A stretch of 64,000 bases of DNA, from positions 1 through 64,000 of the forward strand of contig JAUWMR010000012.1 in NCBI GenBank assembly GCA_030613055.1. The letters run 5' to 3'. Position 1 is the first letter of the stretch. Each line of letters opens with the position of its first letter. This document shows, in pieces, positions 3,197-15,587 of the stretch. The notes beneath the pieces were generated by a model, which saw only the letters and a program-made list of their open reading frames with translations, ran no database searches and was not told the origin of the DNA. The position numbers and the translations under genes are program-made. The DNA is from Desulfobacteraceae bacterium. GTDB taxonomy: Bacteria > Desulfobacterota > DSM-4660 > Desulfatiglandales > Desulfatiglandaceae.

Positions 3197-5109
3197 TGCA
3201 TATAGTAAAATTTTTACCGGATGGAAATGAAGTTGAAGTAGAGGACGGTACTACCATCATGGAGGCGGCCGAAAAGGCCGGTGTTTTTGTTAACAGCCTG
3301 TGCGGAGGAAAGGGAGTGTGCGGGAAATGCCGTGTTCAGGTTTCAGATGGTAAGGTAAAGGCTGACAAGCATTCCATAGGTTTTTTATCTAAAGAGGAAG
3401 TAAAGGATGGCTATGTCCTGGCCTGCCAGAGCAAGGTTGACGATAACCTTGAGGTTGTCATTCCGCCTGAATCCCGCTTAGAAGCTGAACAGATCGTAAT
3501 GGAACAACCGGTGGTTGATTATAGTCAACCGGAAAAGGTCGCAGTCGCAAGAGTCCCTTCTGATCCCATGGCTTTTTTTGAACCTTTAGTCCAAAAAATA
3601 TTCCTGGAACTCAAGGAACCCTTTCAAGAAGACAATATTAGTGATATAGAACGAATTATTAGAGAGCTGAGGAAAAGAACCGACTACCAGTCTTTTGAGA
3701 CAACTTTACGCTGTCTCCAGGGCCTGGCCTCTAATCTGCGGGATAATGCCTGGGAAGTTACGGTCACGATTGCCAAGCATGGTGATCTCTGGCGAATATT
3801 ACAGATAGAACCCGGAGATACCAGTTATCAAAACTACGGGCTGGCTATTGACGTAGGAACAACTACTGTTGTTGCCCAGTTGGTAGATATGAAATCAGGC
3901 AATGTTATCGGAGTAGCCGGTAGCCACAATCTTCAGGCCCATTATGGTGAGGACGTCATTTCCAGAATGGTCTTTGCCTGTGGCAGGGAGCGAGGGCTCA
4001 ACCCGCTTCATGAAGCTATTATTAAAAACATCAACAACCTTATCAAGACCTTGACCGATGAAAAGGGAATAGATGTTGAAGATATAACAGCCATTGTGGC
4101 CGCAGGGAATACAACCATGAGCCATCTTCTTTTATCATTAATTCCCTGCTCTATTCGATTTGACCCCTATGTGCCCACAGCCAATATCTTTCCTCAGATA
4201 CGCGCCAGGCAGGTAGGTATAAACATAAACCCGGAGGGGATACTGGAAACGATTGCAGATGTGGCCAGTTATGTGGGCGGAGATATTGTGGCCGGTATCC
4301 TTGCCTGCGGCATAGCCGACAGGACTGAAACAGGAATACTTATAGATGTCGGAACAAATGGGGAAATCGCAATAGGCAATAACGATTGGATGGTTTGCTG
4401 TTCAGCATCGGCCGGGCCCGCTTTTGAGGGTGGAGGCATTAAAAACGGTATGAGGGCCACACGGGGAGCCATGGAGAGGATAATCATCAATAATGGTGAA
4501 GTGAAATATACGACCATTGGCAAGGCGAAACCAAGAGGAATCTGTGGCTCAGGTCTAATTGACTGTATATATGAGTTTGCTCGAAATGGAATTATTGACC
4601 ATGACGGCAAGTTCAATCCCTCCAACAAACATGAGAGGATAATTGAGAAAGACGGTAAGGCCGAATTCATAGTAGCCTTTTCTCAGGAGACAGAAAAAGG
4701 GGAAGACCTGACAATTTCAGAGTCAGACATAAGCAATCTTATCCGATCCAAAGGCGCGGTTTTTGCGGCTATCAAATCCCTTATGGATTATGTGGGCCTG
4801 AAATTTGAAGACATAGAGACTTTTTTCGTAGCCGGCGGATTTGGGAGTTATTTAGATATTCCAAAAGCGATCGGTATAGGACTACTGCCAGACATTGATC
4901 CTAAGAGAATCCAATTTATTGGAAACAGCTCTCTTATGGGCGCTCGCATTGCCCTTTTATCCAGTCATGGCTTTGAGCGCACCATAAAGATCGCAAATAG
5001 TACGACCAATATAGAGCTCTCTACCTACCAGCCTTTTATGGATGAATACGTTGCAGCAATGTTTCTGCCCCATACGGACAGAAGGCTTTTCCCTTCGGTG
5101 AATTATTAA
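3196..5109 (+). CDS. RACo-like protein: 2Fe-2S ferredoxin domain plus ASKHA ATPase domain (DUF4445)
   Basis: A predicted reductive activator of corrinoid proteins. The N-terminal plant-type ferredoxin domain carries C36, C42, C45 and C77 (SLCGGKGVCGKC, then LACQ). A linker follows, then an ASKHA (actin/Hsp70-like) ATPase with GLAIDVGTTTVVAQL near residue 215 and GTNGEIAIG and GGFGSYLD motifs further on. RACo proteins use ATP to drive reduction of Co(II) corrinoid to Co(I) in methyltransferase systems. The ATG at 3196 has GGAGAA upstream and is preferred to a TTG at 3178. No corrinoid protein or methyltransferase is adjacent, so the partner is unknown. Confidence 0.9.
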   Translation: MHIVKFLPDGNEVEVEDGTTIMEAAEKAGVFVNSLCGGKGVCGKCRVQVSDGKVKADKHSIGFLSKEEVKDGYVLACQSKVDDNLEVVIPPESRLEAEQIVMEQPVVDYSQPEKVAVARVPSDPMAFFEPLVQKIFLELKEPFQEDNISDIERIIRELRKRTDYQSFETTLRCLQGLASNLRDNAWEVTVTIAKHGDLWRILQIEPGDTSYQNYGLAIDVGTTTVVAQLVDMKSGNVIGVAGSHNLQAHYGEDVISRMVFACGRERGLNPLHEAIIKNINNLIKTLTDEKGIDVEDITAIVAAGNTTMSHLLLSLIPCSIRFDPYVPTANIFPQIRARQVGININPEGILETIADVASYVGGDIVAGILACGIADRTETGILIDVGTNGEIAIGNNDWMVCCSASAGPAFEGGGIKNGMRATRGAMERIIINNGEVKYTTIGKAKPRGICGSGLIDCIYEFARNGIIDHDGKFNPSNKHERIIEKDGKAEFIVAFSQETEKGEDLTISESDISNLIRSKGAVFAAIKSLMDYVGLKFEDIETFFVAGGFGSYLDIPKAIGIGLLPDIDPKRIQFIGNSSLMGARIALLSSHGFERTIKIANSTTNIELSTYQPFMDEYVAAMFLPHTDRRLFPSVNY

Positions 5110-5235: not shown

Positions 5236-5415
5236 GTGGTTACTACGCAGAGCATAATATTTTTGAAAGTATTAGAAAAGGACCTTGCCCACTTTTTAAA
5301 ATTCTCTCCATGCGAGAGGCTGCGTTATGTTGAAAAGGAATGGCTGGCCTTTCAGGACTATATCAGGAGATTTGCAGTAACTATGTGTGTTATGGCTTGG
5401 CACGATCAGAGTTGA
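5236..5415 (+). CDS. possible 59-aa protein, convergent with phoU
   Basis: An open frame from GTG 5236 to TGA 5413-5415 encodes a Leu/Arg/aromatic-rich peptide (for example KVLEKDLAHFLKF, then YVEKEWLAFQDYIRRF) with protein-like composition. It overlaps the 3' end of phoU by 26 bases on the other strand and has no strong ribosome site. It could be the remnant of a longer gene. No family recognised. Confidence 0.3.
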   Translation: MVTTQSIIFLKVLEKDLAHFLKFSPCERLRYVEKEWLAFQDYIRRFAVTMCVMAWHDQS

Positions 5416-6073
5416 AGGCATCTTTTCTGTGCCGGGAAATCTCTCCTTCAATCATATAGATTACTTCTTCGGCAATGTTGGTGGCATGATCAGCGATTCG
5501 CTCAAGGTGGCGGGAGATTAGCAGGAGGTTGATAAAATATCCTGCACGGTCAGGCTGGCGGCGGATAGCATCTTTGATCTTATCATAAATGTTGTGATTT
5601 ATTTCGTCCACTTCATCGTCCAGCAGACAAACTTTATAGGCGAGATCAGCATCAAGGTTTACGAGGGCATCAAGGCTGCTTTTAAGCATGGCCCCGGTTT
5701 TTTCTTCCATTATGCGGAAGTCAAATGGAACTGTTATCGGTGGGCGCTTTGAAATATTCTCAACACGTTCAGCAATGTTTACGGCCTCATCACCAATGCG
5801 CTCTAAGTCATTGTTGATCTTTATGACAGCGCTGATGAATCGCAGGTCCACTGCAACAGGCTGGTGCAAAGCAAGGACTTTAAGGCATTCCTCTTCCACT
5901 TCTATCTCGATCTCGTCAATTTCACGGTCCGCGTCTATAATTTTCTTTGCCATATCTCCATTACTGGTCTCATGGGCTTGAATAGCCATTCGGACCCGTT
6001 CTTCTACCATGGTACCAAGTGAAAGGATCTTTTTCTTCAGCTTTTCTATCTCTTTTTGCAAATGTCTTTCCAT
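5390..6073 (-). CDS. phoU: phosphate transport system regulator PhoU
   Basis: A 227-residue helical protein with the two PhoU repeats: N-terminal MERHLQKEIEKLKKKILSLG, the metal-site patterns DREIDEIE and NDLERIGDEAVNIAE, and in the second half SRHLERIADHATNIAEEV. PhoU bridges the Pst transporter and the PhoR kinase and keeps the Pho response off when phosphate is ample. It is the last gene of the pst cluster on this strand, 72 bases after pstB, with GAGG upstream of the ATG. A perfect hairpin lies in the gap before it. No phoR or phoB is visible in the window. Confidence 0.95.
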   Translation of the reverse strand: MERHLQKEIEKLKKKILSLGTMVEERVRMAIQAHETSNGDMAKKIIDADREIDEIEIEVEEECLKVLALHQPVAVDLRFISAVIKINNDLERIGDEAVNIAERVENISKRPPITVPFDFRIMEEKTGAMLKSSLDALVNLDADLAYKVCLLDDEVDEINHNIYDKIKDAIRRQPDRAGYFINLLLISRHLERIADHATNIAEEVIYMIEGEISRHRKDAFNSDRAKP

Positions 6074-6115
6074 AAGTTTTTACCTCAACAGCTTACAGCT
6101 GATTGCTGATCGCTA

Positions 6116-6143
6116 CCCCAATTGAGCTTCCGCTCAATTGGGG
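6116..6143 (-). other. perfect 12-bp hairpin between pstB and phoU
   Basis: CCCCAATTGAGC and GCTCAATTGGGG are perfect inverted arms around a 4-base loop. They fill most of the gap between the pstB stop and the phoU start. No T-run follows toward phoU. It could protect or cut the transcript and so set different levels of PstB and PhoU. Confidence 0.6.
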
Positions 6144-6145
6144 TA

Positions 6146-6907
6146 TTAACCAAAACGTCCGGTGATATAATCTTCTGTCTGTTTAAGACTGGGACGGGTG
6201 AACAGGGTATCGGTTTTGCCAACCTCTACAAGGTTTCCCAGATAAAAGAAAGCTGTAATATCGGAAACCCGTGCCGCCTGCTGCATATTATGCGTTACTA
6301 TGATTATGGTGTATGTCTTTTTTAATTCATGGATTAATCCCTCGATCTTTTGAGTGGCTATGGGATCCAGGGCCGAGCAGGGCTCATCCATCAGAATCAC
6401 TTCAGGCTCCACGGCAAGTGCCCGTGCAATGCAGAGGCGTTGTTGCTGACCTCCTGAAAGACTGAGGGCTGTGTCATGAATCCTGTCTTTTACCTCATCC
6501 CATAAAGCAGCCTGTTTCAGGCTCCTTTCCACCCTTTCCGTAATAAATGAATTATTCCTGTTGCCGTTTACCCGAAGGCCGTATGCAACATTTTCAAAAA
6601 TGCTCTTTGGGAATGGATTTGGCTTTTGAAACACCATGCCGATACGACGGCGAAGTGTGACAACATCTACATTGGGGTCGTAAATGTCCTGATTATCCAA
6701 TAAAATCTTCCCTTCCGCTCGACTATAAGGGATCAGATCGTTCATCCGGTTCAGGCAGCGTAATAGAGTGCTTTTCCCGCATCCTGATGGGCCGATTAGG
6801 GCAGTTACCTGATTTAAATAACAGTCAAGGGAGATATTGATCAGTGCATGGAAATCACTGTAATAAAAATCCAAATCTTTTATTGCCATTTTTAATGATT
6901 CATCCAT
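6146..6907 (-). CDS. pstB: phosphate ABC transporter ATP-binding protein PstB
   Basis: A 253-residue ABC ATPase, the usual PstB length. Walker A is GPSGCGKST (39-47), the Q-loop region is [20 protein letters not shown], a PstB hallmark, the signature is [15 protein letters not shown] and Walker B is [12 protein letters not shown], followed by the H-loop [15 protein letters not shown]. It powers high-affinity phosphate import through PstCA at the inner membrane. It lies third in the pst transport set after pstS, pstC and pstA. A repeat-filled gap of about 320 bases separates it from pstA, unusual within a pst operon. The start could also be the internal ATG at codon 7. Confidence 0.97.
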
Positions 6908-7226
6908 CTCTAAGCCCTAGTTGAGTAGTTAAATGGTTGAGTTGTTGAGTAGGTTACATTTTTTTACTGAACGAATATATAACTTATTACTGGTGGCATA
7001 AAATAGTTTACATTTCTATCATTCAAGACATCTTTATTAAATCTGTAGTGCAGGACTTTAGCCCTGCCAGTAGATGCAGCCCTAAAGGACTGCGCTACCA
7101 GCCAGCCTCGCCTGAGGCGAAGCCAACCCGTCTGCCTCGCCTGCGCGAGAGCAATTGCGTGCAGGGATTCTTTAGATGCAGACAATTATGTGCTCTGGGT
7201 AATAACAACATAACGAATCAGCCAGT
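6908..7226. repeat. repeat-filled gap between pstA and pstB
   Basis: No gene seen. The gap holds a GTTGAGT/AGTTAAAT-type low-complexity run (about 6918-6955) of the kind also found near 26315, 26460, 52712 and 52843. It also holds an imperfect inverted pair at about 7047-7106 (TAGTGCAGGACTTTAGCCC against its complement) and a CGCCTGAGGCGAAG palindrome near 7110. Confidence 0.65.
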
Positions 7227-8183
7227 TCACTGCATCCTCCTTCTGAGGCGTGCCCTGTAGACAATGGCAACCAGATTTAATCCCAAAACAAGGACAATAA
7301 GCACAAGCGCTGTGCCATATTGGAGATGCCTTGTGGCCTCGATTTCTGTGCCGGCCGTGGCAAGCACATAGACATGATAGGGAAGGGTCATGATTTCATC
7401 AAAAATAGAAGATGGCAGAGAAGGTGTATAAAATACAGCCGCGGTAAACATTATGGGCGCCGTTTCTCCAGCGGCCCGGCTGATACCCAAAATCGCCCCA
7501 GTAAGGATACCGGGCAGAGCAGCGGGCAAAACTACCCGATTGATTGTTTGCCACTTGGTAGCGCCAAGGCCAAGAGAGGCTTCCCGATATGTGTCAGGAA
7601 CGGCCCGAAGGGCCTCCTCAGAGGCCCCGATAATTACCGGCAAGGTCATTACCCCAAGGGTCAGGGCTCCAGACAATATGCTCACTCCGAATTGTAACCA
7701 GACCACAAAGAAGGCCAGACCAAAAAGACCGAAGATTATAGAGGGAACTCCTGCAAGGTTATTGATCCCTAACCGGATTATCCGGAGCAACCGGCCGGGT
7801 TTGGCATATTCATTAAGATAAATAGCAGATGCAACTCCTATGGGAAGGGCGACCAGAATAGCGCCCAGGCTGAGGCAGACGGTCCCAACAATACAGGGCA
7901 GGATACCCCCTTTGGTCATGGATTCCATGGGCGGCTGTGTCAGAAACGTCCAGTTGATAGCCCGCCATCCTCTTGAAACAAGAAAGTACATAATGATCAA
8001 CAGTGCGACACCATTAATGGCGGCCGCAATCCTGAATAGTCCGAACATTGAGGCTTGAACAAATTTACGCCTCCCCTGAAGACCATTTGATTGGTCCGTG
8101 TTTACTAACCTTTCTTTCACTCTTTCATTCCCCATTCCGCAATCCGAATTCCAAAATCTATTTTTAGAGTGTTGCAGCTCCAA
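7227..8183 (-). CDS. pstA: phosphate ABC transporter permease PstA
   Basis: An integral membrane permease with about six hydrophobic segments and the binding-protein-dependent transport loop REASLGLGATKWQTINRVVLPAALPG (EAA motif, REASLGLGA onward). The profile SRGWRAINWTF near the N-terminus and the C-terminal LVLGLNLVAIVYRARLRRR are typical of PstA. It forms the phosphate channel with PstC. The frame opens at a TTG at 8183, overlapping the end of pstC by 20 bases; an ATG at 8135 or a GTG just after it may be the true start, because codons 1-16 cover a repeat-like AATTCGGATT stretch. Confidence 0.95.
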   Translation of the reverse strand: MELQHSKNRFWNSDCGMGNERVKERLVNTDQSNGLQGRRKFVQASMFGLFRIAAAINGVALLIIMYFLVSRGWRAINWTFLTQPPMESMTKGGILPCIVGTVCLSLGAILVALPIGVASAIYLNEYAKPGRLLRIIRLGINNLAGVPSIIFGLFGLAFFVVWLQFGVSILSGALTLGVMTLPVIIGASEEALRAVPDTYREASLGLGATKWQTINRVVLPAALPGILTGAILGISRAAGETAPIMFTAAVFYTPSLPSSIFDEIMTLPYHVYVLATAGTEIEATRHLQYGTALVLIVLVLGLNLVAIVYRARLRRRMQ

Positions 8184-9078
8184 CCTGCCTGTATTTATGC
8201 GCTATGTGATCTGCCAGAAGGTTAAAGAGCAGAGTAAAGGCAAATAATACAATCCCAGTAGCAAACAGCGCATAATAGTGATCCCCCCTGAAAGGGGCCT
8301 CTGCCATCTCAGCGGCAATGCTGGCCGGCATGGGTCTCACCGGGTCAAATAGGGAAGCAGGAATAAGAGTTGCACCACCAGCAACCATGAGTACTACCAT
8401 GGTCTCCCCAATGGCCCTGGACATCCCTAAAATGATGGCCGTGCTAATGCCGGAAATGGATGCTGGAATGATTACTCGCCAGATTGTTTCCCAGTGAGTA
8501 GCACCCAGGGCAAGAGACGCCTCTTTGAGTTCTATAGGCACACTGAAAATAGCATCTTCAGAGATGCTGCAAATAGTTGGGATAGACATAAAAGCCAACA
8601 TCAGCGATGCATTAAAAAGATTCAGGCCGGTGGGAATATCAAGGATTTCTTGAAGAAAGGGGGCAAAGACCACCATGCCAAAGAATCCGATCACCACGGA
8701 AGGAATGGCTGCCAGGAGCTCTACAATCGGTTTAACCCACTCCCGCACCCTGTAAGAGGCCGCCTCTGCAAGATAAAGAGCGGTCAGCACCCCCAGGGGA
8801 ATGGAAATTATAGAAGCCACAGCAGTGACTGATATGGATGCAGCGATCAGTGGAAAAATGCCGAAATCAGGGGGATCATCAGTGGGATACCAGTATTTAC
8901 CAAAGAGAAAATCATGGACAGAAACTTCCTTGAAAATAGGTATGCCTTCCATGAAAAGGAACAGGACGATCAGGCCAAGCGTTGTTATTGAGGCAAGGGC
9001 GACACCAAAAAAAGCGATTCGGATTGCCTTTTCCCTTCTTTGGCGGATATTTACTGTTTTACCACCCTCCTTTCCCAA
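8164..9078 (-). CDS. pstC: phosphate ABC transporter permease PstC
   Basis: A 304-residue permease with about six membrane segments. The early segment reads ASITTLGLIVLFLFMEGIPIF, quoted here only as its PstC-like FMEGIPIFKEV part; the EAA loop is KEASLALGATHWETIWRVIIP. It pairs with PstA to carry phosphate across the inner membrane. The start is a TTG at 9078 with AGGGG about 14 bases upstream; no ATG is near. It precedes pstA with a short overlap and follows pstS by about 240 bases of repeat-rich DNA. Confidence 0.95.
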   Translation of the reverse strand: MGKEGGKTVNIRQRREKAIRIAFFGVALASITTLGLIVLFLFMEGIPIFKEVSVHDFLFGKYWYPTDDPPDFGIFPLIAASISVTAVASIISIPLGVLTALYLAEAASYRVREWVKPIVELLAAIPSVVIGFFGMVVFAPFLQEILDIPTGLNLFNASLMLAFMSIPTICSISEDAIFSVPIELKEASLALGATHWETIWRVIIPASISGISTAIILGMSRAIGETMVVLMVAGGATLIPASLFDPVRPMPASIAAEMAEAPFRGDHYYALFATGIVLFAFTLLFNLLADHIAHKYRQVGAATL

Positions 9079-9139
9079 TTTATTTCTTTATTCCCCTTAC
9101 TAATGAGAGATGCTGGTTTCTGGATACTGGTCGAAGATC

Positions 9140-9260
9140 CCGTCTTTAGCGGGGATGAGATATGGAATGGATTGTTTTATCCAGCATCGAGCATCCCCGC
9201 CTGCCGTTCCTGCCCGCAGTACGGCAGGCGGGCGGCGGGCAGGCAGCATCCAGTATCGCT
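9140..9260. repeat. GC-rich palindromic repeat between pstS and pstC
   Basis: A CCCGT-ctttA-GCGGGG element near 9139-9157 is followed by a CCTGCCG/CGGCAGG palindrome cluster at about 9199-9243. Related CCTGCCGT...CGGGCAGG units occur near 26335 and 32070. The fold could help set different levels of PstS and the permease. Confidence 0.55.
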
Positions 9261-9318
9261 TCGCCTTAACCAATGGAGTATGTGTCTCACCAACTCGTCG
9301 GTTTGAGGCCAAGCTTTG

Positions 9319-10137
9319 CTAATACAGAGGCACAAACCCGGCATCGCGCACGTATTTTTGACCTTTTTGTGGGTGCACAACAAAATTGATGAATTTGAGC
9401 GTATCACCCTTGGGCCAGCCTGACGTAAACATATAGAGGGGGCGACTAATGGGGTATGACCCGTTCAGTGTAGTTTCCAGAGATCCTTTAATACGATTCA
9501 CCATCAAGGGCTTCACATTATCATTCATATACCCAAGTCCGATGTAACCAACGGCGTTTTTGTTATTTGCAACTGCCTGCACAATAGCGCCGTTGGAAGC
9601 CTGAAGCAGGGCCCCTGGAAACACCCTCTCCTTCTTCATTACTTTCTTGGACCAGACCTCGTATGTCCCGGAAGAAGTATCGCGGGAAATAACCACAACG
9701 GTCCTGTCCGGCCCACCCAACTCTTTCCAGTTCTTGGTTTTTCCCATATAGAGATCTTTTAGTTGAGCCATGGTGATATTCGTTACGCTGTTGCTGGGAT
9801 GAACTACAGGCACGATACAGTCGTATGCCACAGCAAAAGGAACCGGATATTTCCCTCTTTCCACAGCTAGTTTAATCTCCTTATTTTTAATAAATCGGGA
9901 GCTGTCCGCAATATCGGTTGACCCATCAATGAGGGCCTTGATTCCATTACCTGAGCCGCCACCGGAGATGGATATTTTAACGTCCGGATGTTGCTTCATA
10001 TAGGCTTCCGCTACTTTCTGAGCAATTGGAAGCACTGTCGTGGACCCTTTAATTACTATGTTGCCTGCGTAAGCGAGACTCGCGATCAAACACAAGGCTA
10101 CGGCAAACGTAACTACTGAAAACCCTTTGAATTTCAT
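9319..10137 (-). CDS. pstS: phosphate ABC transporter substrate-binding protein PstS
   Basis: A periplasmic phosphate-binding protein of 272 residues. The signal peptide covers about residues 1-24 (cut after SLAYA). The ligand-binding motifs are KGSTTVLPIAQ and SGGGSGNGIKALIDG, with SSRFIKNKE and SRDTSSGTYEVW further on, as in PstS of many Proteobacteria. It captures phosphate for PstCAB. The ATG has a strong GGAGGGAAAG site. Upstream lie four 11-bp repeats interpreted as a Pho box (10181-10224), so induction by phosphate limitation is expected. Confidence 0.96.
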   Translation of the reverse strand: MKFKGFSVVTFAVALCLIASLAYAGNIVIKGSTTVLPIAQKVAEAYMKQHPDVKISISGGGSGNGIKALIDGSTDIADSSRFIKNKEIKLAVERGKYPVPFAVAYDCIVPVVHPSNSVTNITMAQLKDLYMGKTKNWKELGGPDRTVVVISRDTSSGTYEVWSKKVMKKERVFPGALLQASNGAIVQAVANNKNAVGYIGLGYMNDNVKPLMVNRIKGSLETTLNGSYPISRPLYMFTSGWPKGDTLKFINFVVHPQKGQKYVRDAGFVPLY

Positions 10138-10180: not shown

Positions 10181-10224
10181 TAAATTGTTAGACTTTTGTT
10201 AGAATCCTATTAATGTCTGATTAG
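10181..10224 (-). promoter_or_regulatory. putative Pho box upstream of pstS (4 x 11 bp)
   Basis: Read toward pstS, four consecutive 11-mers are CTAATCAGACA, TTAATAGGATT, CTAACAAAAGT and CTAACAATTTA. Each has TAAY at positions 2-5. The 11-bp period is that of PhoB sites, and nine bases after the last unit comes TATTTT, a fair -10. The core differs from the E. coli CTGTCAT but is shared by four other upstream regions here. Confidence 0.7.
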
Positions 10225-10531
10225 CGACCCTTCACCATCACCTCCTTTGCATCTAAAGCCTTTCGATAAAAATGCCTGCTATTAAAAGAAATTTGCGTCT
10301 CTTCAAAACGCTCTTCAAGTCAATCGCCTTTCTCCGGTGAATCAATGACGCCGCATGATAAATTAAACTGAGGGGGATAGAGAGATGGCCCCCTATCCCC
10401 GACACCCGTCCGCTTGGGGAGGAGGGTGAAAAAGCAATGAAACATATGGTGGAAGCTAAGCCGCAATTGTTAGGCGCTCATTAAGGGAGAGTTAAGACTT
10501 TATGAAATGATAGGTAAGAGGTGTGGTCAGT
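10225..10531. other. gap upstream of pstS
   Basis: No gene seen. A GGGGATAG/CTATCCCC stem at 10374-10401 with a 12-base loop could end transcription of the HAD/GDPD gene, but no T-run follows on the relevant strand. Confidence 0.35.
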
Positions 10532-12013
10532 TTAGGCATTCTGCGGGAGGTTGGAGATAATGTATTCATAGTGTTTATATCTTTCCCCTGATCCCCTTCC
10601 AAAGTAATGCCATTTGGGGAAATTAAAATCCGAGGTAATGGATCTCGGCAAAAGAAGAACGGTTTTCAGAAAAGATTCCAGATCAGGGACATCATAAATA
10701 TTCACTTCAAATCCGAACCGATCTGTCCGGTCAAGCACTTTTCGCAAATGGAGAGTATGCCACTTTATGGAAAACCGGCTGATTCCCCAATCTTTAAGCG
10801 TGCTAAGGATTTTGTTAGCCTTGGCAGGGTGGCTTAATATGAGTGGTGTTATGTGATTAATGGGACATTGTATAATGGCTGAGGGATATGCCTTTCTCAG
10901 TTTACGAAAACCTTTTTCCTTGAGCAGGTCAACATTAGCGTTAAACCATAAATGTGCATCTTCAAGCGTGTGGATCTTGAGCAGTTCAAGAACACTGTCA
11001 ACAAGAGTTCCATTTTCTTTAAGGTCAAGCTTTATGGATTTGCCCATGGCTTTGAGACGATCCACCACATCCTTCAATAAAAGAAGATCCTCGTCATCAC
11101 TGAGCGGCATTTCAGCAAAAGAGTCGTGACGAAGGATGATATCTCTATTCGATGGATCTATGCATACATCACATTCAGCCCATTGGATATTGGCGCCAAG
11201 AAATTGCCTTAAGTTAGCTTCATCATTGACGCCGTGCCATACAAACTGGATATGCCGGGGCAATGCCTTTTCTTTAATCAACTCTGTGATGTCATAAACA
11301 TTTCCGCTCACCGAGCCTTCTGGTAACTTTTTTCTTTTCGATTCAAAAATCGTATTGGCATGGAGAAGGAGAACCTCTTGATGTGGATCAACTTTAGATA
11401 TGGAATTTAGGTTTTCAGGTTCATTATCCACTACGGCAAAGACCCTATAACCGGCCCCTTGGAAATGAAGTACGCCAGCGGCCTTGATATCCGCCACATT
11501 TTCCTCCCATCCGTATGGATTCATATACAGGAGACTATTTGTGAATCGAACCTTGTATTCACCTCCAAGACTGTTGAGTGATCGCAAGGTTTGCGCTCTC
11601 AAAATTTCAGGCCTTCCAGTGTTTAGCGCGACAGATGTGTTGGGCTGCATCTGAAACCACCTGATGACTTCCATGACCCCGGCAAATGGCCGATGGGAGG
11701 CCAATATGGCGTTAGAAGACCAGCGATGATCCTTATACCATCGCAGGATTTCCCCATTGTATTTGTTCGGGATCTTCAATTTTGCGAGCAGTTTTTCCGC
11801 ATGATTTTCGTGGATTGTGATATCTCCAATTCTCAAGTTTTGAAAAAAGAGAGTGGCATGCTCCTGGTCAAAGGATTTGAGGACATGAAGGATCATATGT
11901 CGCATGTCAAGGATCGTGCCATCGATGTCAAAAAGAATCATCAATCTGTCTCCCTGGCATAGACCTCTTATTTTTTCATAATGTAAAGCAAGTTTTTTCA
12001 TCCAGCTATTCAT
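10532..12013 (-). CDS. two-domain protein: HAD hydrolase plus GDPD-like (DUF2181/menorin-like) domain
   Basis: A 493-residue cytoplasmic protein. The first half is a HAD phosphatase: ILFDIDGTILD with D29 and D31, later LNTGRP (motif II-like) and FAVVDNEPEN (motif IV-like). The second half starts near residue 257 with FVWHGVNDEANLRQFLG, then WAECDVCIDPSNRDIILRHD and KLDLKENG, resembling the TIM-barrel of glycerophosphodiester phosphodiesterases, closest to DUF2181/FAM151. A fusion of two phosphoester-acting domains fits phosphate scavenging. The ATG at 12013 has TGAGGAG upstream, and three 11-bp Pho-like repeats lie 54 bases further up. No signal peptide is seen. Substrate unknown. Confidence 0.75.
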   Translation of the reverse strand: MNSWMKKLALHYEKIRGLCQGDRLMILFDIDGTILDMRHMILHVLKSFDQEHATLFFQNLRIGDITIHENHAEKLLAKLKIPNKYNGEILRWYKDHRWSSNAILASHRPFAGVMEVIRWFQMQPNTSVALNTGRPEILRAQTLRSLNSLGGEYKVRFTNSLLYMNPYGWEENVADIKAAGVLHFQGAGYRVFAVVDNEPENLNSISKVDPHQEVLLLHANTIFESKRKKLPEGSVSGNVYDITELIKEKALPRHIQFVWHGVNDEANLRQFLGANIQWAECDVCIDPSNRDIILRHDSFAEMPLSDDEDLLLLKDVVDRLKAMGKSIKLDLKENGTLVDSVLELLKIHTLEDAHLWFNANVDLLKEKGFRKLRKAYPSAIIQCPINHITPLILSHPAKANKILSTLKDWGISRFSIKWHTLHLRKVLDRTDRFGFEVNIYDVPDLESFLKTVLLLPRSITSDFNFPKWHYFGRGSGERYKHYEYIISNLPQNA

Positions 12014-12066
12014 GGATACTCCTCAATTTAAATTTTTAATATTCAGCATTTAGAGTTAAATATATA

Positions 12067-12099
12067 AGTCAGATTAAATTCTTATTAAGAAGCTATTAG
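12067..12099 (-). promoter_or_regulatory. putative Pho box upstream of the HAD/GDPD-like gene (3 x 11 bp)
   Basis: Read toward the gene, CTAATAGCTTC, TTAATAAGAAT and TTAATCTGACT follow one another exactly every 11 bases with TAAT at positions 2-5. The -10 element is not clear: TATATA follows at once. Confidence 0.65.
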
Positions 12100-12113
12100 G
12101 ATTTTAATAATAA

Positions 12114-12593
12114 TTAATCTTCGGCCTTATCATCCTCCGGGCTGAATTGGACTGCCAGTGCACGAACTACACCAAGACAGAGTATTACAAATCCAAAGGC
12201 AAGTAATGTTTGCCATGAGATGCTCTCCTGCCCGTAGAGTTTCACTATAAGTTCCCGGATTACAAAGACAATGGCAGGATTGACCATTGTATGGAGCCTG
12301 AATCGGTGGGACTCAAAGTATTCTATAAAGCTTCTAAATAATTCGATGATGACTAAGAAGGTGAGAATGTCTGTGACCACAGTGTTAAAAGATTGTCCAA
12401 TCGGTTGACTATCCAAAAACGCCTTCATCCCATAAAGTATCCTGATGAGACCAATGGCCAGTACCAGGATAATATAGATAACGAGGACATTGATGATGTA
12501 TTGGAGCGATTTACGAAATACCTGCTGGGCATCTGGCAATTTCAAAACTGATCTTTCTCTTATTTTGTAATAGTTCACCGGTTTAATCGCCAA
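12114..12593 (-). CDS. psiE: phosphate-starvation-inducible PsiE family protein
   Basis: A 159-residue membrane protein with about four hydrophobic segments, among them VLVIYIILVLAIGLI and SWQTLLAFGFVILCLGVVRA. The family pattern TDILTFLVIIELFRSFIEYFE with HRFRLHTMVNPAIVFVIRELIV is typical of PsiE. PsiE is phosphate-regulated in enterobacteria, but its biochemical role is not known. It lies upstream of the HAD/GDPD-like gene on the same strand. Four Pho-like repeats on its coding strand at 12643-12686 support phosphate control. Confidence 0.85.
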   Translation of the reverse strand: MAIKPVNYYKIRERSVLKLPDAQQVFRKSLQYIINVLVIYIILVLAIGLIRILYGMKAFLDSQPIGQSFNTVVTDILTFLVIIELFRSFIEYFESHRFRLHTMVNPAIVFVIRELIVKLYGQESISWQTLLAFGFVILCLGVVRALAVQFSPEDDKAED

Positions 12594-12595
12594 CC

Positions 12596-12622
12596 TACTG
12601 TAGGAGCGGCTTTAGCCGCGAC
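12596..12622 (+). repeat. REP-like palindrome
   Basis: CTGTAGGAGCGGCTTTAGCC forms a small palindrome directly upstream of psiE. Close relatives occur at about 24455-24478, 24805-24835 (inverted) and 29022-29050, all intergenic. Confidence 0.65.
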
Positions 12623-12642
12623 CTCGAATCAAAGCATATGTA

Positions 12643-12686
12643 TCGAAGATTAAGACTCAATTAGGAACATATGAAAGTATCATTAG
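12643..12686 (-). promoter_or_regulatory. putative Pho box upstream of psiE (4 x 11 bp)
   Basis: Read toward psiE the units are CTAATGATACT, TTCATATGTTC, CTAATTGAGTC and TTAATCTTCGA. Three of four carry TAAT at positions 2-5 with an exact 11-bp period. Confidence 0.6.
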
Positions 12687-12769
12687 TTTTTTGGGAAGAT
12701 GGTCACAGTTTTAGGGGATCAATAAGAGATGGAGTAGAGTTTACCCATTACCAGGAATTCTTTTAGATT

Positions 12770-12813
12770 ATAACAAAATCCTAACCTGACGGTAATAAGG
12801 GTATAACAAAACC
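12770..12813 (+). promoter_or_regulatory. putative Pho box upstream of the 45-aa peptide gene (4 x 11 bp)
   Basis: ATAACAAAATC, CTAACCTGACG, GTAATAAGGGT and ATAACAAAACC stand in exact 11-bp register with TAAY at positions 2-5. TATGAT (12823-12828) follows after nine bases as a good -10. The first open frame downstream is the small gene at 12902. Confidence 0.7.
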
Positions 12814-12901
12814 CCGGTTATTTATGATCATGTGAAAGGGGAAAAAAGCACATAAATTGACAGAACGCACATAAACAAACCTCAATGGGATTTTAAATAT
12901 C

Positions 12902-13039
12902 ATGAAATTCATTTCTGGATTGTCAATATTAATAATCATATTTTCTATGGGCATGTTCTATTACAGTTCATGTAAAAAGATTGCCGATGATCTTGTGCGT
13001 AAAATTATCGAAGAAAAAGATGATATGACTGAAAATTAA
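12902..13039 (+). CDS. small membrane-anchored peptide, 45 aa, probably phosphate-regulated
   Basis: Starts at ATG 12902 and ends at TAA 13037. The N-terminus is a single hydrophobic segment (FISGLSILIIIFSMGMFYY), followed by SSCKKIADDLVRKIIEEKDD, a short charged helix. It may be an uncleaved anchor, or a lipoprotein-like signal with the Cys at residue 24. The ribosome site is weak. The Pho-like box and -10 upstream argue that the frame is expressed. No family recognised. Confidence 0.5.
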   Translation: MKFISGLSILIIIFSMGMFYYSSCKKIADDLVRKIIEEKDDMTEN

Positions 13040-13125
13040 CGCCATCTTAATAACAATATAACATTGATGCGCCTTAAGAATATTAAAGAAAATGAGCAAA
13101 CCGAAAACAGAAGAGGATGGTAAGT

Positions 13126-13332
13126 ATGGAAAAAATAGTGATTTTGACCGAGCAATCGGAGCCTGATCAAGATTTACTTGCGTTGCTCAATGGGCTGTTT
13201 CCTGATTGCGAGATCCAAATTGGTTCCAAGGGGACTGAGACTTTTGGGGAGCATCCTGCCAGTTGTTTTCCTTTCCAATTACGAAGAATACAACAGGGAA
13301 GGAACCATGGCGAACATTTTAGTTCAAAATAG
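13126..13332 (+). CDS. small protein of unknown function, possibly frameshifted
   Basis: From ATG 13126, after AGAGGATGG, the frame gives MEKIVILTEQSEPDQDLLALLNGLFPDCEIQI and further residues, about 68 in all (quoted as MEKIVILTEQ and LNGLFPDCEIQI). Near codon 35 the neighbouring frame takes on a more protein-like look (LLGSILPVVFLSNYEE) and runs to 13381, including MANILVQNSGFLVKM after its own GGGAAGG site. One indel near 13220-13260 would join both into about 85 residues. Whether this is a real short gene or a decayed one cannot be told. No family recognised. Confidence 0.35.
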   Translation: MEKIVILTEQSEPDQDLLALLNGLFPDCEIQIGSKGTETFGEHPASCFPFQLRRIQQGRNHGEHFSSK

Positions 13333-13493
13333 CGGCTTCTTGGTAAAGATGTCTATCGAGGTTTTTTTCCAAGAGCCGTAATCCCAAGGGCTTGACACCA
13401 CAAACATCTCCTCCCCACAACTGTTCAATAGAAAATGTAGCACTAACCATCTCCGCCATAATTGCTGGAACTGGCTGTCGATCATTTTAAATG

Positions 13494-13537
13494 TTAACGG
13501 AAATTTAACATTGCCTTAATCAAAACCTAAACAAAGC
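13494..13537 (+). promoter_or_regulatory. putative Pho box upstream of the porin (4 x 11 bp)
   Basis: TTAACGGAAAT, TTAACATTGCC, TTAATCAAAAC and CTAAACAAAGC follow each other with an exact 11-bp period; the first three have TAAY at positions 2-5. A long leader of about 185 bases separates it from the porin ATG. The leader includes an inverted pair CTAAAAAC/GTTTTTAG (about 13556-13588). Confidence 0.65.
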
Positions 13538-13725: not shown

Positions 13726-14940
13726 ATGAAAAAAGTTTTTTTGTTAGCGATCACTGTTGTGCTCGTAATGACTTTTGCGGTTCCGGCCATGGCCAAGGTC
13801 ACAATCGGTGGTATCGTGTACGTAGATGCTTTCTGGACGCACAGGGATGCGGACCATATGCAAAGGGTAGTGGGAAGAGCAAATGACTCATCCCAGACCC
13901 GGTTTAATCTGGACGTACCCTCGTGTTCCAGGCTTTTTGCAAAGTGGATCAGCAAAGAGGGTAATGTTGGAATGCATATTGAATTCGGGATTGACGGCGA
14001 GGCAAGCGGTGAGAATGTCGGAACCCGTCATGCATTCGGCTGGTGGCAGATAAACGACATCTTCAAGCTGATCGTCGGCCAGACCAGTGAGACCTTTGCC
14101 AAATTAGCCCCGACCGCTCAGCTGATGGGTGGCGAAGCTGCGGGCGGAAATGTTCATGTCATCGGTTACGGGTTTGGCAACTTTGGAAACGACAGGGAGC
14201 CGCGCGTTCAGATTAATGCCAAGCTGACCGATAATTTCTCCCTTGACGTCTCAGCCGTGTATATGAGGGTCAACGGCGCGCAGAGATTACCTGCCGGTGT
14301 CAGTGTATTAGCAGGAACATGGGCCGCGGCCGAGGAAGAGAGCTGCATGCCCAAGTTTGAGGTCTTGCTCACGGCAAAGTTTGGTCCGGTCACCATTTAT
14401 CCGTCCTTTATGTACTACAAGGCTAAATATGCCAGAGACGCTGGAACAAGTGCAAATGTTTGGGCGCAGGACGATGACGAAATCATGGCCTATGGCTGGG
14501 CCATCCCGGTCAAGTTCGCTTACGGTCCGTTCTCCCTTGCAGCGGAATATGTGATGGGTGAAAACATCGCTGCTGCAGGTGGCGGTGCCTTGACTCAACT
14601 GACTTACGCATGGGATGCCCAGGGCGATACCAGGGTAGTTGCCAACTCTGAAGTAAATGCCTTCTGGATTGATCTGGGTTATACCATTTCTCCCCTTGCA
14701 TCCCTCCATTTTGTCTGGGGTATGCAGGATGAGGAATTGGACAGAGAGGGTCTTGCCAACGACATGGTGCGTGAAAGTGACATGTGGGGCCTTGCACTGC
14801 CTCTAAGGGTTGCCCCGCACTTTACGATTACTCCTAACTACTTTGTGTATGACTGGGGTGATCAGGAAGACGGTGGTGTAAATCTAGGTGGATTGGGCAA
14901 AGAGACCTTGGTTGGTATACAGTTTATGGTGGCCTTTTAG
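13726..14940 (+). CDS. outer-membrane porin, probably phosphate-starvation induced
   Basis: A 404-residue beta-barrel protein. The signal peptide is MKKVFLLAITVVLVMTFAVP to AMA (1-23). The mature part alternates hydrophobic and polar residues and ends in IQFMVAF, the terminal Phe recognised by the BAM machinery. It has an AGGAGG ribosome site and a double terminator after the stop, so it is transcribed alone. The upstream Pho-like box and the nearby pst/psiE genes suggest that it admits phosphate or phosphorylated solutes across the outer membrane. Substrate preference cannot be read from sequence. It is not recognisably OprP or PhoE. Confidence 0.8.
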   Translation: MKKVFLLAITVVLVMTFAVPAMAKVTIGGIVYVDAFWTHRDADHMQRVVGRANDSSQTRFNLDVPSCSRLFAKWISKEGNVGMHIEFGIDGEASGENVGTRHAFGWWQINDIFKLIVGQTSETFAKLAPTAQLMGGEAAGGNVHVIGYGFGNFGNDREPRVQINAKLTDNFSLDVSAVYMRVNGAQRLPAGVSVLAGTWAAAEEESCMPKFEVLLTAKFGPVTIYPSFMYYKAKYARDAGTSANVWAQDDDEIMAYGWAIPVKFAYGPFSLAAEYVMGENIAAAGGGALTQLTYAWDAQGDTRVVANSEVNAFWIDLGYTISPLASLHFVWGMQDEELDREGLANDMVRESDMWGLALPLRVAPHFTITPNYFVYDWGDQEDGGVNLGGLGKETLVGIQFMVAF

Positions 14941-15026: not shown

Positions 15027-15587
15027 TTGACTATCGGTCGTTTAGATTCAATGTCATTGACTTAAAGCGTAGCGCAGGGCTTCAGCCCTGCGCTACATTG
15101 GAAGACGCCTGCGCCGGTTCGGGCCCATAAGCTAATGACATTGCGTTTAGATTGTGATTATATTCCTGAACCCTAACGTTGCAAAATTCGAGGGTCGAAG
15201 ATCCCGTAAAAGCGGGAAGATGCGGCACTCTCGGTGCCGTATTGTTTATGCAACATTAGGGTAAACTTTCAGGGGCATGGACTTCAATTGGAGCAATATG
15301 AATATCAGCGGCATGCTGCCGGACTTGCCACAGGTCGTAAGCGGCCTGTTCCCGTAGCCAGGGTTCGGCGGGCAGGTCCAAACTTTAAGTGTTTTTCGTT
15401 GGATATTGGTTGTTGATAATTGGACATTGGATATTTTTTCACTCTATCTCTTCGTGTCCTTTGTGGTAAAAATTATGCTACGATATATTGAGCTGTTACT
15501 CTGCGCCTAAAATTTCATCCATGCTCAAATCTAAGGTACGAGACATCTCGCTAATTTTTTGTACACCTTGAACCTTTGTCTTTACAC
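15027..15587. repeat. gap with several dispersed repeats
   Basis: No gene seen. Contents: a GTAGCGCAGGGC palindrome (15069-15096) set between AATGTCATT and AATGACATT; a CGAAGATCCCG/AGCGGGA unit near 15191-15212; a CGGCAC/GTGCCG hairpin near 15222-15240; and at 15377-15467 an inverted copy of the 91-bp repeat found at 31979 and 33173 (contains CTCTTCGTGTCCTTTGTGGT). Confidence 0.7.

Follow-up and report, generated by a model that had tools for sequence, protein, structure and literature searches.

In Escherichia coli, the Pho box (CTGTCAT followed by 4 bp) occurs as tandem 11-bp direct repeats upstream of pst, phoB and psiE, and in Bacillus subtilis the PhoP box, TTAACA, is repeated with the same 11-bp period. 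In cyanobacteria, the Pho box of SphR consists of CTTAACCT plus 3 bp, as in the pstS2 box of strain PCC 6803, CTTAATTCtatCTTAATTTcgaCTTAATCA (PMC1906773). In the sulfate reducer Desulfovibrio vulgaris, the PhoB box is a direct repeat of (c/t)GT(n)AC (PMC3333781, PMC6456213), and species-specific consensus sequences of the Pho box are already known (PMC4415409). In this work we analyzed the first 64,000 nucleotides of contig JAUWMR010000012.1 from a Desulfobacteraceae bacterium (hereafter the window; contig C75 of the 97 contigs of a 4.26-Mb genome), which among named genomes is closest to metagenome assemblies of Deltaproteobacteria/Desulfobacterales; the phylum name Desulfobacterota is used here on the basis of these relatives and of established taxonomy. 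Between positions 10181 and 13537 it contains seven clusters, each of three or four tandem 11-bp units with the consensus YTAAYaanany and the core YTAAY. Boxes of this type lie upstream of, and point toward, phosphate-acquisition genes (pstS, psiE) and phoBR. Judged from sequence and placement, the seven clusters are almost certainly Pho boxes, that is, tandem half-sites for predicted PhoB binding.

An initial annotation had proposed five such boxes in this region, each with three or four exact units carrying TAAY at positions 2-5. All five are real, with the positions and orientations that it gave, but the count rises to seven since two boxes had been missed. The pstS box (10181..10224, minus strand) reads CTAATCAGACA TTAATAGGATT CTAACAAAAGT CTAACAATTTA and lies 44 nt ahead of the pstS start codon. 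Between this box and the GDPD-like gene lies the first of the missed boxes, a distal pstS box (10463..10506, minus strand; three-unit core 10463-10495) with the units (TTCATAAAGTC) TTAACTCTCCC TTAATGAGCGC CTAACAATTGC. The box of the HAD/GDPD-like gene (12067..12110, minus strand; three-unit core 12067-12099) reads (TTATTAAAATC) CTAATAGCTTC TTAATAAGAAT TTAATCTGACT, and that of psiE (12643..12686, minus strand) reads CTAATGATACT TTCATATGTTC CTAATTGAGTC TTAATCTTCGA. On the plus strand, the gene of a 45-aa peptide is preceded by ATAACAAAATC CTAACCTGACG GTAATAAGGGT ATAACAAAACC (12770..12813), an open reading frame (ORF) of 69-71 aa by the second missed box, TTAACGCCATC TTAATAACAAT ATAACATTGAT (13036..13068), and the porin gene by TTAACGGAAAT TTAACATTGCC TTAATCAAAAC CTAAACAAAGC (13494..13537). 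The exactness claimed for the units holds at pstS (4/4), the HAD/GDPD-like gene (3/3) and the 45-aa gene (4/4) and fails in one unit each at psiE (3/4; unit 2 is TTCAT) and the porin (3/4; unit 4 is CTAAA). Over the 25 pooled window units, position 1 is T in 12, C in nine, A in three and G in one, and position 3 is A in 24 and C in one.

The arrangement departs strongly from random expectation. Between 10.1 and 13.6 kb, TAAY motifs are separated by 11 bp in 15 pairs and by 22 bp, a harmonic, in nine, with any other distance seen zero to four times; the 11-bp period reported initially is the sole enriched spacing. Three-unit matches number eight in the 64 kb, against 0.017 expected in order-3 Markov sequence, and 19 exact ones in the whole genome, eight of them within this 3.35-kb stretch (binomial p about 1e-20). 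The 11 outside the window include a site beside phoR, several matches within coding sequence, some simple repeats (contigs C21, C38 and C87) and intergenic matches at C12 and C64 without a phosphate gene. When a simple matrix was applied to a simulated 4.3-Mb background, two three-unit scores reached at least 18 and none at least 22, while the window sites score 19-28.

For the genome-wide test we used a sequence-only model (R1) from a gapless alignment of eighteen sites of 44 nt (the seven window sites and eleven from the pst regions of relatives), with no phoBR or phoB-upstream site in the training set. A second model (R2) was made from sites of other genomes, one being a copy of the pstS site of this genome, and was balanced at position 1. 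In the genome search, scoring was confined to the 150 best candidates of a first look, and weak sites may therefore be missed. R1 gave nine matches with E < 0.3 in the genome, namely the seven window boxes, one after phoR (C84:74879-74916) and one about 100 bp ahead of the phoB start (C84:72058-72097). The tenth had E = 1.4, and equally good matches at random intergenic positions were thus not found; placement at phosphate genes is nearly exclusive. R2 recovered eight of the nine and added a single site at E = 3.4, and under both models the pstS box was the top-scoring match. The best PhoB of the genome is encoded at C84:72160-72843, followed by PhoR, a Cache-like/HAMP/PAS histidine kinase. 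Its score against TIGR02154 (246.9 bits) is below the curated cut-off of 296.2, but it is a member of a phoBR pair, and this pair is present in the same genome as the boxes. The presence of boxes at both flanks of phoBR agrees with the expected autoregulation.

The boxes are also found in related genomes. Most relatives carry a box upstream of pstS, often two in tandem as in the window; the pstS box is identical in L020 and similar in L021, L023-L025 and L028, and the distal box corresponds to one in the equivalent location of L020 (5626) and of other relatives with two boxes ahead of pstS. L023 and G001 each have one box upstream of phoB. In G012, the HAD/GDPD homologue (73% identity) is preceded by its own box (L089), and the homologue of the 45-aa peptide (62% identity) likewise has its own box, which heads a run where the 71-aa ORF and a receiver-domain gene come next; L020 has a box at 3646 (minus strand) with its homologue of the 71-aa ORF. 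The boxes at the homologues in G012 make the small genes look like conserved regulon members and not accidents. Across the phylum, R1 matched in 39 of 118 genomes, with sites upstream of pstS, phoB, phoU and porins, and of 27 loci that were looked at, no fewer than 17 map to pst, phoB/phoR or phoU genes, 13 of them identified by BLAST and four by a PstS signature recognized by eye. In 30 further genomes, not among these, pstS or pstC is immediately downstream of the site in 18 cases. Matches in relatives and phylum are thus mostly at phosphate genes, and the scans of genome, relatives and phylum all support the earlier suggestion that the region would be a phosphate-starvation island.

The first base of the unit varies among these genomes together with residue 201 of PhoB. 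In the crystal structure of E. coli PhoB with DNA, Arg201 bonds a guanine while T194 and V197 touch thymines (PMC3973317, PMC3264566). Compared with this contact set, the PhoB of our genome keeps V197, R203, T217 and R219 and has S194 and G201 instead; those members of its family and order whose PhoB was read have glycine at 201 too. In a first set of genomes, position 1 was C in 76, T in 37 and G in six units of G201 genomes, and G in 15, T in 12 and C in none of R201 genomes; it was T in 14 of 16 units for H201 and C in 11 of 15 for S201. By residue, R201 is associated with G, G201 or S201 with C, and H201 or N201 with T. R2, balanced at position 1 against training bias, was run on 394 genomes, and among the 24 newly matched ones in which PhoB could be read, G opens the last unit in all six R201 genomes and in one of the 18 others (Fisher p = 5e-5). 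Pooling 71 genomes, G stands at position 1 in 12/14 with R201 and in 2/57 others. G352 and G022, with G201 and G1, are exceptions. A requirement of Gly201 for the TAAY-type site was rejected, as R201 and H201 genomes use nTAAY too and only position 1 follows the residue.

Loss of Arg201, which is replaced by glycine in this genome, is consistent with the change seen at position 1. We give about an even chance to the idea that in Desulfobacterota the identity of PhoB residue 201 determines which base opens the half-site, according to this correspondence, a change in the recognition helix having been followed by regulon-wide rewriting of the boxes. That residue 201 causes the change is a hypothesis with good motivation, still short of proof. 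Shared ancestry, without any recognition contact, could also explain the association, and we consider this explanation quite possible, at somewhat under an even chance. With the recognition-helix columns removed, the PhoB tree contains only one or two independent switches away from Arg201, and phylogeny alone could yield the association; a pair test cannot reach significance; moreover, cyanobacterial SphR reportedly retains the DNA-contact residues and its box is nonetheless TTAAC (PMC1906773). A role for ancestry alone is, however, weakened by the fact that residue 201 is the guanine-bonding residue of the crystal structure, that the base shifts in the expected direction, G being lost along with Arg, and that the association held in the 24 further genomes from the balanced model. 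Mycobacterium tuberculosis RegX3 has Arg at the equivalent position, whereas the Streptomyces PhoP box is GTTCACC; together with SphR, this suggests that the rule, if true, may be limited to the phylum.

As a separate observation, three loci (L143, L145 and L076, of G025, G022 and G015) share one site type, in which position 1 is G (GTAATC.. GTAAyAAG..), though the PhoB of G022 has Gly201; in G022 this site lies upstream of a PHP-domain gene and a homologue of the 45-aa peptide. These sites are possibly a separate class.

We hypothesize that, when phosphate is scarce, PhoR would phosphorylate PhoB, which may then line up head-to-tail on one face of the DNA, occupying the three or four 11-bp units, and recruit RNA polymerase to pstSCAB-phoU, psiE, the HAD/GDPD gene, the two small-protein genes and the porin. 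PhoB would also act on phoBR itself, in a positive feedback. Binding by PhoB, induction at low phosphate and activation in preference to repression are the inferred parts of this model. Three observations weigh against it. The initial annotation had expected enrichment at phoB/phoR, phosphatase and phosphonate genes; beyond the window only the phoB and phoR flanks were matched, and no phosphatase or phosphonate gene of this genome has a detectable box in the matrix scan. The distance from the last unit to a TATAAT -10 element seems not to be fixed, being 4 nt for the site beside phoR and 14 nt at phoB, and at the other boxes a -10 element is hard to make out. R1 matched nothing in roughly two thirds of the phylum genomes, where boxes may be weak, different or missing, or may have been lost to the filters.

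Another regulator of the OmpR family might occupy the sites in place of PhoB, as the genome encodes at least five full-length OmpR/PhoB-type regulators and a close relative has a receiver-kinase gene between psiE and phoR. We regard this as improbable, because the sites flank phoBR itself, and pstS across the phylum, and because their first base tracks residue 201 of PhoB. Chance or low-complexity repeats of AT-rich intergenic DNA, to which the AT-rich core and a few microsatellite-like simple repeats among the 11 outside matches would point, have a negligible probability, being refuted by the genome scan with its matrix matches nearly confined to pho genes, by the enrichment of the 11-bp spacing only, by the 8/19 matches falling in ~3.4 kb and by the orthologous conservation.

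The genes served by the putative boxes begin with phoU (5390..6073; TIGR02135, E=4e-62), pstB (6146..6907; TIGR00972, E=2e-123), pstA (7227..8183; TIGR00974, E=3e-91), pstC (8164..9078; TIGR02138, E=3e-86) and pstS, for the phosphate-binding protein (9319..10137; TIGR02136, E=3e-83), all on the minus strand and beyond doubt a pst operon (5390-10137). Next on this strand are the HAD/GDPD-like gene (10532..12013), coding for 493 aa, and psiE, of the phosphate-starvation-inducible E family (12114..12593; PF06146, E=6e-17). The HAD/GDPD assignment is weak, the N-terminal half resembling HAD_2 (4.8e-4) and the C-terminal half being GDPD/menorin-like (Menorin, 8.4e-5) in Pfam matches under the family cut-offs; a PDB search gave no match and the AlphaFold model (pLDDT, the predicted local distance difference test, 42) is too poor for use. 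On the plus strand, the conserved 45-aa peptide (12902..13039) has an N-terminal hydrophobic stretch, seen by eye, and homologues in G012 (62%) and G022 (51%), with no match in Pfam, NCBIfam or PHROGs. The conserved 71-aa ORF (13117..13332, probable start 13126), with homologues in L020 (72%) and G012 (70%), had no match in a Pfam search. The 404-aa porin-like outer-membrane protein (13726..14940) has a weak DESULF_POR1 match.

At three loci that begin with or adjoin the 71-aa ORF (window 13117-13400, L020 3229-3607 and L086 704-1265), the receiver-domain gene that follows this ORF differs in length. It is whole in G012 but a fragment in L020 and in the window, where apparently only its first residues are left, which suggests decay of part of the operon. 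Near phoBR, a second porin copy, 81% identical to that of the window, lies at C84:75465-76706 (L046 7466-8707), downstream of the phoR-side box yet on the other (minus) strand. The same box is followed by a conserved small protein of ~90 aa (C84 ~75064-75273; L046 7065-7274, plus strand; also L020 2867-3136), with homologues close to Pho-box-like sites in several relatives (L075, L078, L080, L085, L094); for this 89-aa protein a Pfam search gave no match. Elsewhere in the genome, C87:41391-41416 and C21:55813-55838 are near-perfect 11-bp tandem repeats (TAATCTTCyGG; TAACTATAATG), intergenic and away from phosphate genes, one of them directly 3' of a sensor-kinase gene. Short GC-rich repeat-like intergenic stretches at 9180-9245 and 15060-15110 of the window (cctgccgttcctgcccgcag.., agcgcagggcttcagccctgcgct) resemble small dispersed repeats or hairpins.

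These results provide a Pho-regulon matrix that can be used for a large phylum whose members are mostly uncultured and on which we found little published beyond D. vulgaris; they also extend the likely phosphate-starvation response by conserved small proteins. Boxes and PhoB together offer a simple way to test how a response regulator changes jointly with the sites that it binds and, if the reading of residue 201 is true, they record in readable form a global regulator changing in step with its sites.

In comparison with known systems, a literature search of partial coverage found no YTAAY box described for Desulfobacterota other than D. vulgaris. The E. coli unit, read from its G, is GTCAY followed by an A-rich tail, in the same frame as YTAAY and its A-rich tail, and TTCAT and CTCAT units occur here too. 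A first register, in which YTAAY was aligned to CTGTC, was dropped for GTCAY, which accounts for those units, for Y at position 5 and for the tail. Relative to E. coli, position 1 is C or T and not G and position 3 is A and not C, with no other core difference; there are three or four units here and two there, and residue 201 of PhoB is Gly here and Arg there. By the enteric definition, a GTCA core with G first, the window units do not qualify. The initial annotation was therefore right that the core differs from CTGTCAT, but it is not lineage-specific, being phylum-wide and near the published cyanobacterial and Desulfovibrio boxes. With the SphR box, the window sites as wholes share the 11-bp period, at least three units and the TTAAC core; SphR has T at position 1, where the promoter-nearest units of G201 genomes mostly have C, and belongs to another phylum, the regulator here being a Desulfobacterota PhoB. 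The B. subtilis box shares the TTAAC core and the period, under a Firmicute regulator. D. vulgaris, also a sulfate reducer, shares the 11-bp direct repeat in the same frame, G1 T2 n3 A4 C5, and the letters of its box resemble those of our R201 genomes in having G at position 1, by which standard the window units fall outside the Desulfovibrio type. Pho boxes of varying consensus, those of TTAAC type and the GT(n)AC of D. vulgaris were thus known already; what is new here is the covariation of position 1 with residue 201.

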